Shown here one piece after another: positions 3,707 through 18,798 of a stretch of 25,213 bases of DNA; within the stretch, counting starts at the first letter, position 1, and each line of letters starts with the position of its first letter. The translations under genes were made by a program, and so were the position numbers. The stretch comes from a virus. The stretch is taken from positions 1 through 25,213 of IMG/VR virus record IMGVR_UViG_3300034152_000391. The stretch is one strand, 5' to 3'. The notes under the pieces were generated by a model. It worked only from the letters and a program-made list of their open reading frames with translations, had not been told where the DNA came from and searched no databases.

Positions 3707-4060
3707 TTAAGGCACCTCCTGGGAAAAATTAATCACGCCGCCAACACTTGAAATCCTGGCGTTAACTGTGAGCTTTCTAACTGTATTATCATAGGTCATC
3801 GCAAATTCATCAATAGAAAGAACACCAGGTGTGCTGGCAATTTCGCTGATAAATAGGTTTTCAATTTCGGCTGAATTTGGGTTTTTAACAAGGATCGTAC
3901 TAAAATAAGGCAGCCCTTTTTCCACATCCAAAAACCACTCGCCTACAAAAGTTTTTAGCCTGATGGCAATCATCTGGGCTATTTCTTCTTTGCCTGTGGT
4001 AAATTGAACTGATCCACTTTGGACATCCCAGTCACCAGTGCTATCAAGAAGTATATTCAT
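3707..4060 (-). CDS. Baseplate wedge protein, gp25/gpW-like
   Basis: A 117-residue protein with the gp25/GPW layout: a short N-terminal strand (DWDVQSGSVQFTTGKEEIAQ), a helix with conserved Arg-Leu (MIAIRLKTFVGEWFLDVEKG), a Gly-x-Pro-Tyr, and a C-terminal beta region ending FAMTYDNTVRKLTVNARI. In contractile tails this protein clips baseplate wedge arms to the sheath and hub. The size matches the family, and the place next to baseplate J is the standard one. It overlaps the preceding gene by 4 bases (4057-4060). Confidence 0.82.
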   Translation of the reverse strand: MNILLDSTGDWDVQSGSVQFTTGKEEIAQMIAIRLKTFVGEWFLDVEKGLPYFSTILVKNPNSAEIENLFISEIASTPGVLSIDEFAMTYDNTVRKLTVNARISSVGGVINFSQEVP

Positions 4061-4614
4061 GCTACAGCCCTCGCTGCGTCAGTTAATGGATTTGGCCCCG
4101 CTGGTGGTGATACACTATTAAGCCCATCAGTCGTGACGGTTAAAAGTAAAAATGCTTCATAGAACTTAACAGGAAATTGAGGATCTTCGTTTTGTTCTTC
4201 AGGCACCAAGTTTTTAAGTTCTTTAACTTTATCTTTAGCTGACGCTATCGACGCGGCGTCAATAATTGTTGAATTAACTACGCTCCACGTTGTAGCAGGA
4301 GTTGCTGGGATTATAAAAGATCCTACAGCCGTAGCGGGTGTTGATGACAAAATTGCTGTTTCCCAGGCGCTTGCTACTTGATCCATCGATGCGTCTTGAT
4401 CGTTATTGGGAGTAAGAGTTGCAAGTTGAGTAGCAAACGTTGACTTGTCAAATGTAAACGAAAAACCTGGGCCACCAATACCTGGTAAACTCATCTTAGA
4501 AGTTACGCGAGCATTCATCCAATCGGCAATGACTTGTGGCCACGTAGGAGAATTTGTAGGCACTACATCTGTCTTGTAAGTGCTTTTCCACGTTGCTAGA
4601 GAGTCAATTGCCAT
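4057..4614 (-). CDS. Uncharacterised baseplate-region protein
   Basis: A 185-residue protein that I do not recognise. It is rich in Ala, Thr, Pro and Ser and low in Cys and His. It begins MAIDSLATWKSTYK, which suggests an N-terminal helix, has a central GIGGPGFSFTF segment and ends in a Pro/Ala-rich tail. It sits between the gp138-like spike and the gp25-like wedge genes, overlaps the latter by 4 bases and follows the former after 3 bases. A small baseplate or spike-tip accessory protein is the best guess from position alone. No signal peptide or membrane segment is seen. Confidence 0.6.
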   Translation of the reverse strand: MAIDSLATWKSTYKTDVVPTNSPTWPQVIADWMNARVTSKMSLPGIGGPGFSFTFDKSTFATQLATLTPNNDQDASMDQVASAWETAILSSTPATAVGSFIIPATPATTWSVVNSTIIDAASIASAKDKVKELKNLVPEEQNEDPQFPVKFYEAFLLLTVTTDGLNSVSPPAGPNPLTDAARAVA

Positions 4615-4617
4615 TTA

Positions 4618-5310
4618 TTAAGCCTTTATCGTCGTAAGTTTAGCTTTAATAGCTGTTATTGCAGCAGCATTATTCGGAACTCCTGACGGGCCTACTGCTG
4701 TCGGAACTGTTAAAGCTAATATTTGATCGATTAATTCATCGAGAAGTCCTAAAAGTTCAATGACACCATTTCCCAGCGATACTTTACCTGTTTTATCAAC
4801 TGTGATTTTACCAGCACCCGCTGTTACTTCTATTGCATCTTTTTTGACAGTTACCTTAGAAAGAAGATGGCGAATAACCAAATTGTCTGGATCCACAAGC
4901 ATTGGATTAGAAAGTGGGTAGACACCGGGGATTGCGATAGCGTCACTTATGTCATGGGTTCTAGGATCATTTGGCTCGACAAGTCCACCGACTGTTTTCC
5001 AAGACTCTAAGCTTCGTTGCGAAAAAACAAGAAGTACATTGTCGCCAGATTTAAGTGGGAAGGTGATCCCAGCTTGACCGGCGCGAGGAAACGCTACGGG
5101 GACATTATTTATAACAGGAAGATTTACGACTTCCTCGTCTTTTTCATATTTACGCTTAAACACAGGCTGCACATTTGCCAGGTTAGTCGTTGCATTGTAG
5201 CTTTCTACTTGACCAGGCATTGCCGTGTAAAGATCAACTAAAGATGCACGTATGCCGGTGCGGATAGCTTCAGCAAGTGTAGGGGTTTCCTTTTTAATTT
5301 GGGTTATCAT
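4618..5310 (-). CDS. Baseplate spike protein, gp138/gpV-like
   Basis: A 230-residue protein. Residues about 28-125 (VDLYTAMPGQVESYNATTNL, NVQPVFKRKY, INNVPVAFPRAGQAGITFPL, GDNVLLVFSQRSLESW) match the OB-fold N-terminal domain of gp138-type membrane-piercing spikes. Residues about 130-190 (LSKVTVKKDAIEVTAGAGKI, then TVDKTGKVSLGNG) look like the short triangular beta-helix strand repeats of these spikes. A C-terminal helix (IELLGLLDELIDQILAL) and a Val/Pro/Ala tail follow. As a trimer it would form the tip that contacts the host membrane on contraction. It shares one base with the hub gene upstream (5310). Confidence 0.85.
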   Translation of the reverse strand: MITQIKKETPTLAEAIRTGIRASLVDLYTAMPGQVESYNATTNLANVQPVFKRKYEKDEEVVNLPVINNVPVAFPRAGQAGITFPLKSGDNVLLVFSQRSLESWKTVGGLVEPNDPRTHDISDAIAIPGVYPLSNPMLVDPDNLVIRHLLSKVTVKKDAIEVTAGAGKITVDKTGKVSLGNGVIELLGLLDELIDQILALTVPTAVGPSGVPNNAAAITAIKAKLTTIKA

Positions 5311-16342: not shown

Positions 16343-16945
16343 GTGACTACCTCCGTTATTGGGTTTATCCAAACGATCTTTTCTAGGACTCTCGCCTTCC
16401 AAGATCAATTCAGCATCTTCACTGTCGAGTCTTAATTTTACCTCACGTCCTGCCCTTCCTCTGTCTACTATTGCCAGATGATTACCGCGTATATTTGTCT
16501 GACGTGCATCGTAATGCTCACCTTTATAGACACCGGGCTCAAACACTACGTCACACTTATAACCACAACTAACTTCTCGAAGTCCTTGTTTTTCGACCTC
16601 ATCAATAATTTTCTGATCCATAAGCGTCACGACAGTTTCTACAAAATCACCATCTTGTTTAGGATTATCTGCGGTAACACCAACCATGTATTTCTTCACG
16701 TTACTTGATGTCACCAGCTCACTAGGGTGGCGATTAGTAACCGGAATACCCGCAAATGTAGAAAGCGAGTCTGCCTTAAACACTTCATCAGGGTGGCGAA
16801 GCTCACGCCTAACTGTGCCATCAGCTCGCCTATACTGAAAAATTCCAGCTCGTGTAACATGTGCTGGAACTTTTAAAAATCCACTGTCTAACTTGATGGC
16901 CTTGGCGTCGAGTTTGTATGTGTCAAATCTATTAGCAGTTGTCAT
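15731..16945 (-). CDS. Prohead protease-scaffold fusion (DUF2213-like)
   Basis: A 404-residue protein. Residues about 1-185 match the DUF2213 protease-like domain: GIPVTNRHPSELVTSSNVKK (67-86), LREVSCGY (122-129), NIRGNHLAIVDRGRAG (151-166). H73 and S126 are candidate catalytic residues by analogy with prohead proteases. Residues about 225-300 are a Lys/Glu-rich coiled coil (AKLDQVTEERDKMKKDAEEA), as in capsid scaffolds, and the C-terminal 100 residues are charged. The stop of the upstream gene overlaps its ATG (ATGA). An internal start with a strong ribosome binding site lies at codon 202 (see 15731-16342), so the scaffold half is probably also made alone. Confidence 0.82.
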   Translation of the reverse strand: MTTANRFDTYKLDAKAIKLDSGFLKVPAHVTRAGIFQYRRADGTVRRELRHPDEVFKADSLSTFAGIPVTNRHPSELVTSSNVKKYMVGVTADNPKQDGDFVETVVTLMDQKIIDEVEKQGLREVSCGYKCDVVFEPGVYKGEHYDARQTNIRGNHLAIVDRGRAGREVKLRLDSEDAELILEGESPRKDRLDKPNNGGSHMTKVTINGVQYDASEALASAIASENEKKDKALADVKAELESTKTDGKKEKDEIQAKLDQVTEERDKMKKDAEEAPKVKDLVSARMKLVSQATPHLDKETLEKLDEMDDKAVKVAVIKSKSEKFDEEGRSDDYINARFDAIMETEPKKDEKKDNPLILDLHENEKSRKDGEEKTAAEIRADNMKRDSELWQQPLAHSLEAVGGK

Positions 16946-18798
16946 AAATTTTCTCCAGTCTGTTCACCAAAACCACCTAGTAAAAAACCAGCACCGATGG
17001 TGGCCGCTGTCGATAAAAGTGAACCGCTACGCTCCTCATCTGCTTCTTCAGTAATTAAATCTTCAAGCACCGGCTCGGCATAACATCTACAGTTGCTCAC
17101 CATAGAATTTTGTGCTAAATACATGCCTGCAGATGTTTCTAGGTTATAAACATATTCATTTATTGATATTTTTTCAATCGAGGTAATTTTTTGAAATTTA
17201 TAAAAGGCCAGATCCCTTGGAACAAAATACAAGACATTTCCGCAAAAGAACTCGCTAAAAGGTATCTTGATGGTGAAAGCATCAATAGTATTTCTAATGA
17301 TCTCAAGATCAGTCGCGGGGCTATCACCAGGATTTTGAAAGAATCTGGGGTTTGTCTCCGTAAAAGATCCGAAGCTGAAATTCTCAAATGGTCTAAAATG
17401 ACCGCCGACCAGCGCAGGTCGCAAGTTAAAAATGCCCACATCGCAAGCAGAGGAAGTAAAAGAGCACACTCTCATAAATGCAGCGTTGCGAAAACTAATC
17501 AGGATCGACAAACTAGAAAAGGAAAATTTGAAAAAAGAATCAAAAATTTTCTTGAAGATAGTGGTTTTTGCTGCACTTCCCAGTTTGCTTGGCAGCAATT
17601 TAACATCGATATCTGCGTTAACGATGCCATCTCCGTGGAAATCTTGTCTTCTCCCGTGAACCCTCTTGGCAGGGTTCTCGATGCTCGAAAAATTGTCAAA
17701 CATCTCAGATATAGTAGGCCCATTGTTTACATTGTTATGAGTAATTATCGGTTTTTTAAAAAAAGTGGAGCGCACAAAGAGCTTGTCGCTATCTTGAATA
17801 ATATCCTTAGTAGCGACAAAGCCGCGCGAAGTAAATATTGGGTGATTAGGTGTCGTAATCATTTTGGAAGCATCGCCTTCAAAACTTACTGCGAAACCAT
17901 CCCCGCTATATTTTCTACGATACATTCGTTTCAAATGACCAAGAACCTTAACTTTAGTTGATCCTACAAAACATTGATAATCTTCCCCAGGATGGCCCGT
18001 GTCACTTGGAGGATCATTCCAGCTATATGTGCGACCTTCTTTAATGCGGTGCGTTGGCCTAACACGTTCATCAAGGGATGTTCTCCAAATATATTTCTTA
18101 ACCCCAAGGGATGTTTGTCTTACTTTCGTTAGCTGCCCGTTTAACTTACTCACTTGATCACGAGCAATCAAATTCAAGTTAGCCTCAGTTTTACCAGTTT
18201 TTTGCTCGATAAGTTCGCGTACAGCTTGTGCAGGTAGACCTTGGCGCACGCCACGCATAACTACCGAGCGAACTTCATTGATATGTCGTTGAGGCAAACT
18301 GGTAATAAGCTGAGCATTTTCTCTGGAAAAACTCTCAAGGATCCCTTCGAGATATGGTTCATGTCGAAACACATCCACACTTAGAACTTGTCTAAAAACC
18401 TTATCATTTTGGGCTAAGTTCCACCGAGAAGTTTGTCCACCGATACGTTTAGCTAAACTTTCTATCTCATCATCGGTTAAACGTCGGCCAAATTCAACTA
18501 AAATCCCACCAAGTATAGTTTCGAGTTCATCAGGAAAATCGTCAAAGCGTTGTGGCTCAAGCTCCATACGCGCCGTCGCCAAAAGTGAGTCTAAACGAGA
18601 AATCAGATTTTCGTTAACCGAAGCAAAAAACTCGTCGAAATATAAATTTAGTTCTTTTAGATATTGTCTCTCAATTTGCCTGGGATGCAAAAGGGGTGGC
18701 GGCGTTAAACTAAACTTTTTTCCACGGCGACGTTGCCAAGCACGACGTCGGCGCAGTGCTCGATCAATATCTGGATTTGTCCTAAGGCGCAGACCCAT
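16942..18798 (-). CDS. Mu gpF-like minor head protein interrupted by an intein
   Basis: A 618-codon frame. Residues 1-275 and 570-618 form the host protein (324 residues after splicing). The N-extein contains VMRGVRQGLPAQAVRELIEQ, ARDQVSKLNGQLTKVRQTSL and LDERVRPTHRIKEGRTYSWN, then GHPGEDYQ. The C-extein begins CRCYAEPV. Joined, they give the H-P-G-E-D-x-x-C-R-C motif of the phage Mu F head morphogenesis family. Such proteins sit inside the head near the portal and are needed for assembly or DNA ejection. Residues 276-569 are an intein inserted directly before the first Cys of C-R-C. The gene follows the portal gene after 7 bases and overlaps the protease gene (ATGA). An antisense gene lies within the intein. 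Confidence 0.9.
   Translation of the reverse strand: MGLRLRTNPDIDRALRRRRAWQRRRGKKFSLTPPPLLHPRQIERQYLKELNLYFDEFFASVNENLISRLDSLLATARMELEPQRFDDFPDELETILGGILVEFGRRLTDDEIESLAKRIGGQTSRWNLAQNDKVFRQVLSVDVFRHEPYLEGILESFSRENAQLITSLPQRHINEVRSVVMRGVRQGLPAQAVRELIEQKTGKTEANLNLIARDQVSKLNGQLTKVRQTSLGVKKYIWRTSLDERVRPTHRIKEGRTYSWNDPPSDTGHPGEDYQCFVGSTKVKVLGHLKRMYRRKYSGDGFAVSFEGDASKMITTPNHPIFTSRGFVATKDIIQDSDKLFVRSTFFKKPIITHNNVNNGPTISEMFDNFSSIENPAKRVHGRRQDFHGDGIVNADIDVKLLPSKLGSAAKTTIFKKIFDSFFKFSFSSLSILISFRNAAFMRVCSFTSSACDVGIFNLRPALVGGHFRPFENFSFGSFTETNPRFFQNPGDSPATDLEIIRNTIDAFTIKIPFSEFFCGNVLYFVPRDLAFYKFQKITSIEKISINEYVYNLETSAGMYLAQNSMVSNCRCYAEPVLEDLITEEADEERSGSLLSTAATIGAGFLLGGFGEQTGENL
17092..17973 (-). mobile_element. 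Intein in the gpF-like protein
   Basis: 294 residues (276-569 of the precursor). The N-terminal splice block is CFVGSTKVKV with Cys1. Block B is ITTPNHPIFTSRGF with Thr316 and His319. The C-terminal block is VYNLETSAGMYLAQNSMVSN, followed by Cys570 as the +1 nucleophile. All splice nucleophiles (Cys1, Asn294, Cys+1) are present. The usual penultimate His is Ser568, and block F also lacks its His. No LAGLIDADG motif lies in this frame. About 200 residues between blocks B and F include DFHGDG (386-391) and a Phe/Ser-rich part that is the mirror of a Lys/Glu-rich antisense gene. The insertion point, the most conserved motif of the host protein, is typical of inteins. Confidence 0.9.
17191..17961 (+). 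CDS. Antisense-nested Vsr/PD-(D/E)XK-like homing endonuclease
   Basis: A 256-codon gene wholly inside the intein on the other strand. The start is TTG at 17191, with GAGGT six bases upstream (17180-17184). Residues 1-12 (MKFIKGQIPWNK) carry the K-G-x-I-P-W-N-K motif common in phage homing endonucleases. Residues 17-51 (AKELAKRYLDGESINSISND, LKISRGAITRILKE) form a clear helix-turn-helix. Residues 112-222 fit a Vsr/PD-(D/E)XK nuclease: E114 in FEKRIKNFLEDSGF, D140 in FNIDICV, E150 in AISVEI, D164 with K167/K170 downstream, and a final strand KYWVIRC. A usual His after the Glu is not obvious. It would cut intein-free gpF-like genes and so spread the intein. Codons are exactly opposite those of the intein. 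Activity is untested; the reading frame and motifs argue against chance. Confidence 0.82.
   Translation: MKFIKGQIPWNKIQDISAKELAKRYLDGESINSISNDLKISRGAITRILKESGVCLRKRSEAEILKWSKMTADQRRSQVKNAHIASRGSKRAHSHKCSVAKTNQDRQTRKGKFEKRIKNFLEDSGFCCTSQFAWQQFNIDICVNDAISVEILSSPVNPLGRVLDARKIVKHLRYSRPIVYIVMSNYRFFKKSGAHKELVAILNNILSSDKAARSKYWVIRCRNHFGSIAFKTYCETIPAIFSTIHSFQMTKNLNFS

Follow-up and report, generated by a model that had tools for sequence, protein, structure and literature searches.

An intein in phage MuF-type head protein genes with a probable homing endonuclease gene overprinted in codon register on the opposite strand

In all mobile inteins known to us, the homing endonuclease is either part of the same polypeptide chain or, if the intein is split, encoded in separate DNA. 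An intein found in a 25.2 kb phage fragment (25,213 nucleotides, here called the window) raises the question whether such a nuclease can also be encoded on the very bases of the intein. The intein interrupts a gene for a MuF-type minor head protein, which belongs to a late operon on the minus strand. The original prediction, made from the sequence alone, had claimed that the plus strand of the same DNA carries a separate 256-codon nuclease gene, overprinted in register on the intein. Both the minus-strand intein frame and the plus-strand gene were found where they had been placed (Table 1). Considering the evidence presented below, we assign a probability of about 0.88 to the reading that this intein is mobile and that its homing endonuclease comes from a second gene, written over the intein in codon register on the other strand.

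Within the host protein the intein is bordered by ...PGEDYQ on the N side and CRCYAEP on the C side, and its motifs follow the order C1 ... TPNH (residues 41-44) ... VYNLE ... MVSN/CRC (the slash marks the splice junction). An N-terminal Cys, a TxxH motif in block B and a C-terminal Asn followed by Cys are all present, and C1, H44 and N294 are invariant in an alignment of 74 intein sequences. While the Pfam model Intein_splicing matches the window host ORF with an E-value of 8e-5, a hit that falls short of the model's cut-off, the match to the HINT fold is strong. The structure model shows confident HINT parts (residues 1 to about 70 and 255-294; pLDDT about 95) around a poorly ordered middle (pLDDT about 50), and superimposes on the Mtu RecA mini-intein with Z 12.3 and an rmsd of 1.5 over 107 residues. 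Searches with profiles, among them Pfam and NCBIfam, revealed no nuclease domain in the sense-frame intein chain.

Table 1. Positions of the intein, its host gene and the antisense gene in the window.
Feature	Coordinates	Strand	Basis and remarks
MuF-type minor head protein gene (intein host)	16942..18798	-	Pfam Phage_Mu_F E 2.4e-17; NCBIfam phageSPP1_gp7 4e-15
N-extein	17974-18798	-	part of the MuF-type host gene
C-extein	16942-17091	-	part of the MuF-type host gene
Intein, 294 residues, Cys1 ... Asn294 / Cys+1	17092..17973	-	sequence, HINT fold, relatives
Splice block A, residues 1-13	17935..17973	-	sequence and alignment; in part opposite the C-terminal end of the nuclease gene
Splice block B, TPNHPIFTSR, residues 41-50	17824..17853	-	faces the WVIRC strand of the nuclease; T41, N43 and H44 conserved in 74 relatives
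Splice block F region with VYNLE	17119..17163	-	in relatives, location of the antisense Shine-Dalgarno sequence and start codon
Splice block G, AQNSMVSN, residues 287-294	17092..17115	-	sequence and relatives
Antisense homing-endonuclease-like gene, 256 aa	17191..17961	+	TTG start at 17191, TGA stop at 17959-17961; codon-aligned with the intein
Shine-Dalgarno-like GAGG	17180..17183	+	sequence; 7 nt upstream of the TTG
Weak sigma-70-like site, ATAACA-17-TAGAAT	17080..17108	+	9/12 bases; relatives carry strong promoters here
Helix-turn-helix region of the nuclease, residues 18-61	17242..17373	+	Pfam HTH_58 over cut-off
Vsr-like catalytic core, residues 109-234, with E114, D140, E150	17515..17892	+	alignment, fold, sequence profile

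The two reading frames are exactly in register: position 1 of each nuclease codon lies opposite position 3 of an intein codon, and middle bases face each other. Inside the overlap, 13 Leu and 24 Ser codons of the intein include no TTA, CTA or TCA, so that the earlier hand count was exact. Given the intein protein and the codon usage of the genome, the probability that the antisense frame stays open is 3.6e-5, and the codon-aligned open run extends over 264 codons compared to a maximum of 149 among the other genes of the window. A chance open frame was rejected on these grounds. The remaining two plus-strand frames contain 10 and 33 stops across the intein. The ribosome binding site that had been proposed is present ahead of the TTG, as is the helix-turn-helix (HTH), which scores 35.4 bits with Pfam HTH_58 against a cut-off of 23.8. 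The motif KGQIPWNK, also pointed out at the time, does occur in the window copy but is not conserved in the alignment of relatives, and was therefore dismissed as a family signature. Compared to its relatives the window copy appears modest. It lacks the first of two HTH repeats present in many of them, it starts at TTG where the usual start is an ATG or GTG opposite block F, and its predicted promoter matches at 9 of 12 positions; given these features, its expression may be weak. No convincing terminator for the nuclease gene was found on the plus strand of the window.

The proposed Vsr/PD-(D/E)XK-like core was borne out by its predicted fold. An AlphaFold2 model of the nuclease (mean pLDDT 85.9) consists of HTH helices and a mixed core, and its best matches among solved structures are the Vsr endonuclease (Z 10.7) and the catalytic domain of I-Bth0305I (Z 10.3). 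These Z scores come from a second aligner, added because the Foldseek E-value is weak by itself (0.09 for I-Bth0305I, at a probability of 0.97-0.98). Whereas a sequence search of the PDB with the single nuclease protein gave no match, the profile search that the original prediction had proposed retrieved 3hrl (8e-7) and I-Bth0305I (3r3p; 9e-5). The structural matches are moderate, and a common fold is no proof of function. In an alignment of 92 nuclease sequences D140 and E150 are invariant, E114 is found in more than 90%, and Y137 and N138 are also nearly invariant. For the E-D-x-H-D motif (EDxHD, I-Bth0305I type) the comparison covered an E and a D, both of which are present. The Pfam family MTES_1575 is matched by 50 of the 92 members and a resolvase-type HTH by many.

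The combination of an intein and a codon-aligned antisense nuclease is both real and general: the layout is common to hundreds of phages, and some 250 related loci were assembled. A tblastn search with the antisense protein returned 39 phage records (weakest match 4e-17, about 30% identity). Beneath every match the annotation gives either a minor head/MuF protein or a hypothetical one, and wherever the record was opened, the match runs antisense inside that gene. Scans of viral contigs yielded 69 loci when one alignment served as query and 489 relatives, of which 80 were kept, with another; bacterial genome contigs contained four loci with nuclease relatives. When a single protein served as query, only one viral contig was found. 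In an HMM survey, 172 of 173 nuclease matches longer than 300 bases have the codon-aligned antisense frame, and this one alone, open, and 153 loci of this survey hold a complete intein (C1...N/C). A search with the first 75 intein residues, for which the nuclease was not used, found 355 relatives. The best 80 of these all carry the antisense nuclease in identical register; they are the closest of the 355 to nuclease-bearing queries, and hence describe this intein family, not inteins generally, and are not an unbiased sample. A few contigs of this set also occur in the nuclease-found set. The complete inteins number 231, of which 176 are distinct. TTA, CTA and TCA account for none of 5694 Leu and Ser codons in the overlaps examined, compared to 998 of 6352 in the exteins. 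In all phage and plasmid records examined here (the plasmid gene table being incomplete) no gene is annotated opposite the intein, and the analysis thus exposes a gene absent from their annotation; the record of Escherichia phage Snoke annotates the intein, but not the antisense gene.

To evaluate the nuclease frame, intein codons were resampled synonymously, either from genome codon usage or by permuting the window's own codons, and the nuclease HMM score was determined again. From 190.8 bits in the window it falls to a mean of 41 (maximum 89) with genome codon usage and to a mean of 58 (maximum 109) with permuted codons. In the reverse experiment, synonymous shuffling of nuclease codons lowers the score of the intein N-block from 48.7 bits to a mean of 8-10 (maximum 32). 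These results show that both frames carry information beyond each other's shadow. The same picture emerges from substitutions in 14 close pairs, counted by intein codon position. Differences at positions 1/2/3 amount to 598/170/374 in the intein middle, 71/15/99 opposite blocks A-B and 283/187/788 in the exteins, which means that the wobble base of the nuclease is free in the intein middle and that of the intein at blocks A-B. Among codons with a single change, 337 in the intein middle are silent in the nuclease only and 119 in the intein only, while opposite blocks A-B the corresponding counts are 27 and 60. The locus is thus an overlapping antisense gene pair with constraint in both frames.

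The splicing blocks also appear to contain expression signals. The nuclease start codon in most relatives is the reverse of the His codon in the block F sequence HVYNL, with GAGGT or GGAG upstream, opposite NLE/NLQ. Signals were counted in 118 non-redundant loci and compared to synonymous resampling. Opposite the last 45 intein codons, 84 cases of a Shine-Dalgarno sequence with an in-frame start were counted (17.5 ± 3.4 in resampled sequences), and opposite the last 20 intein codons, 53 cases of TATAAT (12.1 ± 2.7). Sigma-70 promoters with 11 or 12 of 12 bases matching number 38 against 2.5 expected, and 19 are perfect TTGACA-17/18-TATAAT. Family-wide, a predicted sigma-70 promoter, Shine-Dalgarno sequence and start codon thus sit antisense to splice blocks F and G.

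The distribution of the intein was followed among related phages. A search of Guernseyvirinae with the Jersey MuF gene gave matches in 406 records, of which 58 cover at least 80% of the query; among the matches listed, many others align in two pieces with the intein alone missing, and more distant records match a short 3' part only, which is uninformative on intein presence. For Klebsiella phages and their relatives, full coverage of the query was seen in 8 of 71. Empty sites are exact at the junction of the Asn and Cys codons (SETP7 and JustaPhage compared to Jersey and RCIP0054). Jersey and Snoke share 67.5% base identity in the N-extein and 95.7% in the intein; for Jersey and LSPA1 the values are 68.3% and 96.6%. 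Mobility is evident from the clean empty sites, from the patchy occurrence of the intein and from intein sequences that resemble each other more closely than the exteins do. In the intein-less Klebsiella phage JustaPhage (locus L177:1-232, minus strand), an annotated HNH endonuclease adjoins the MuF gene; it is possibly another competitor for the MuF site.

Members of the family also occupy other genes and another MuF site. Two dCMP deaminase genes (L017:2108-3514, plus strand, Pfam 5.6e-11; L261:2312-3655, minus strand) contain the intein with an antisense nuclease, the two nucleases being 60% identical. An RtcB RNA ligase gene (L245:1664-3712, plus strand, Pfam 2e-122) carries a family intein and an antisense nuclease whose frame has one stop near the C-terminal end. 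The unit is also present in a minor capsid 2 gene (L228), and L230:1970-4705 (plus strand) has a family intein at a second MuF site (RVE/C ... N/TIYRTN), with apparently Thr as the +1 residue.

Relatives of the nuclease that stand free of an intein, and copies in decay, complete the picture. At L148:2878-3843 (plus strand) a free-standing Vsr-like relative with an extra Cys/His-rich N-terminal part lies tail-to-tail with an intein-less MuF gene (3834-4688, minus strand); its three antisense frames are closed by 4, 17 and 10 stops. In the antisense family, the nuclease motif VAVE faces FHGD of the intein and YxVIRG faces TPNH of block B. As VIRG is kept in the free-standing protein, it is not just the reverse of TPNH. 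A free-standing HNH endonuclease (L088:2860-3582, plus strand) that immediately follows an uninterrupted MuF gene has the HTH and a SEAExLKWSxM part in common with the antisense family, joined to an HNH nuclease; it probably has the same target, with the nuclease swapped. The position of both genes beside intein-less MuF genes suggests, without proof, that the DNA-binding part targets MuF. An antisense frame broken while the intein is kept was clearly seen once only, at L253:1679-3112 (plus strand), where a shortened intein of 188 residues persists and stops break up the decayed nuclease frame. Since nuclease decay is expected of homing elements, we regard this case as an exception, not a refutation. 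L228/L229 have a shortened intein (191 aa) with a decayed or internally deleted antisense nuclease. Together with L253 they are snapshots of nuclease loss.

Expression, cutting, target and homing are what we infer from these observations. On the sense strand, the late operon would give rise to a minor head precursor translated with the intein, in which the two HINT parts at the ends of the intein (residues 1 to about 70, and 255-294) would fold around the poorly ordered middle and splice the intein out. On the opposite strand, separate start signals would drive expression of the nuclease; in most relatives these are a promoter and ribosome site opposite blocks G and F. In mixed infections it would bind an intein-less MuF allele via its HTH region, and the Vsr-like core would cut at or near the conserved HPxC/RC codons, so that intein and nuclease are copied jointly when the break is repaired with the intein-bearing allele as template. 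This arrangement has its cost, as TTA, CTA and TCA codons are barred from the overlap. In its middle the intein mainly reflects the nuclease, but it dominates opposite blocks A-B.

Could one of the two frames be a mere consequence of the other? The least probable reading, which we strongly disfavour, takes the antisense ORF as an untranslated by-product of intein conservation read backwards. The codon-aligned antisense frame is indeed the easiest to keep open, and complementary motifs mirror each other (TPNH/VIRG, FHGD/VAVE). However, a mere shadow was rejected by the shuffling scores (190.8 to a mean of 41-58 bits) and the substitution pattern, with the nuclease frame better conserved in the intein middle (337 against 119), and it would account neither for the HTH and Vsr folds of the product nor for a free-standing homologue without any intein (L148) or the enrichment of promoters and Shine-Dalgarno sequences. 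The opposite case, in which a nuclease gene has been inserted in reverse into the head gene and the sense frame is a read-through linker without splicing, would fit a middle that is poorly ordered in the model and mostly obeys nuclease constraints, but is highly improbable as well. Blocks A, B, F and G, C1 and the Asn/Cys junction are kept in all complete members, the ends adopt the HINT fold with Z 12.3, the intein wobble base is the free one at blocks A-B, empty sites are exact and lie ahead of a conserved Cys, and even the shortened members (L253, L228) retain the splicing ends.

A genuine antisense protein might also serve another purpose, e.g. as a DNA-binding regulator or as a nuclease directed against competing phages or host DNA. 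HTH repeats dominate its N-terminal part, Vsr-like folds are also found in repair and restriction enzymes, and phages use nucleases against rivals; nevertheless we consider this unlikely, since the acidic residues of the active site do not vary, the unit always accompanies an intein, with empty alleles and intein-specific horizontal transfer, and both free-standing relatives examined (L148, L088) adjoin intein-less MuF genes. In contrast, a separate, oppositely oriented nuclease overprinted in register on the intein, as first proposed, is supported by the architecture and its in-register conservation across about 250 related loci, by selection in both frames, the folds (the core did match a nuclease fold), the signals embedded in the intein and the empty sites, and by a patchy distribution with indications of horizontal transfer.

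By its expected working the element should be regarded as a mobile intein, while no precedent for its encoding was found in the literature searched. With canonical homing inteins, which contain a LAGLIDADG or HNH domain, it has in common the HINT domain, a conserved insertion site and mobility with empty alleles; it differs in that the nuclease is a separate polypeptide from the opposite strand, overprinted on the splicing blocks and, in most members, equipped with expression signals of its own. Split inteins with free-standing Vsr-like nucleases were reportedly described by Dassa et al. in 2009 as 'fractured genes'. There, too, a Vsr-like nuclease accompanies the intein without being fused to it, but its gene lies between the split halves, whereas here intein and nuclease occupy the same bases. 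Vsr-like (EDxHD) homing endonucleases including I-Bth0305I have been reviewed (PMC3943268). I-Bth0305I likewise combines a Vsr-like catalytic fold with DNA-binding modules in a phage mobile element, but derives from a mobile group I intron and not from a gene antisense within an intein. The ShiLan element, an HNH gene hidden out of frame in a phage methylase insertion (PMC11855218, 2025), also places a homing nuclease in another frame of an insertion kept open in the host frame; it is, however, on the same strand, HNH and no intein, and a splicing domain and ribosome binding site were not found there. Ambigrammatic narnaviruses show in-register antisense coding with avoidance of UUA, CUA and UCA (PMC8316113). 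They resemble the present locus in having two long opposite-strand ORFs in -0 register with this codon avoidance, but are RNA viruses, whereas the inteins belong to DNA phages and both products to recognised protein families. A 2025 preprint by Gosselin, Arsenault and Gogarten, as cited in PMC11855218, deals with actinobacteriophage inteins of 'non-canonical architecture', and these may include the Gordonia MuF inteins found here. An intein with an antisense nuclease was not described in the literature searched, the coverage of which was partial and did not extend to this preprint.

We consider it likely that these elements represent a large, undescribed class of double-strand-coded ('ambigrammatic') mobile inteins of DNA phages, about 0.8-1 kb long, with the promoter, ribosome site and start of the nuclease folded into the splicing blocks, which move as a unit into unrelated genes (MuF, dCMP deaminase, RtcB) and provide a natural case of two unrelated folded proteins encoded in register on complementary strands. 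As splicing element and mobiliser have every base of the overlap in common, mutating either one will often alter the other as well. This changes the homing cycle, because the nuclease is not free to decay without consequences for the intein. The family offers a natural, widespread and testable instance of two proteins of known fold encoded antisense in register, and it includes phages amenable to laboratory culture (Jerseyvirus, Kagunavirus, Klebsiella and Gordonia phages). Such coding is under debate for early coding (Rodin-Ohno) and is sought for synthetic gene entanglement. As a minor observation, the public 'head protein' profile phrog_15127 (PHROG 15127) takes in the intein plus its antisense shadow. 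It matches residues 1-232 of the window intein and the intein within the dCMP deaminase gene of L017, so that annotation by this profile can mislead.
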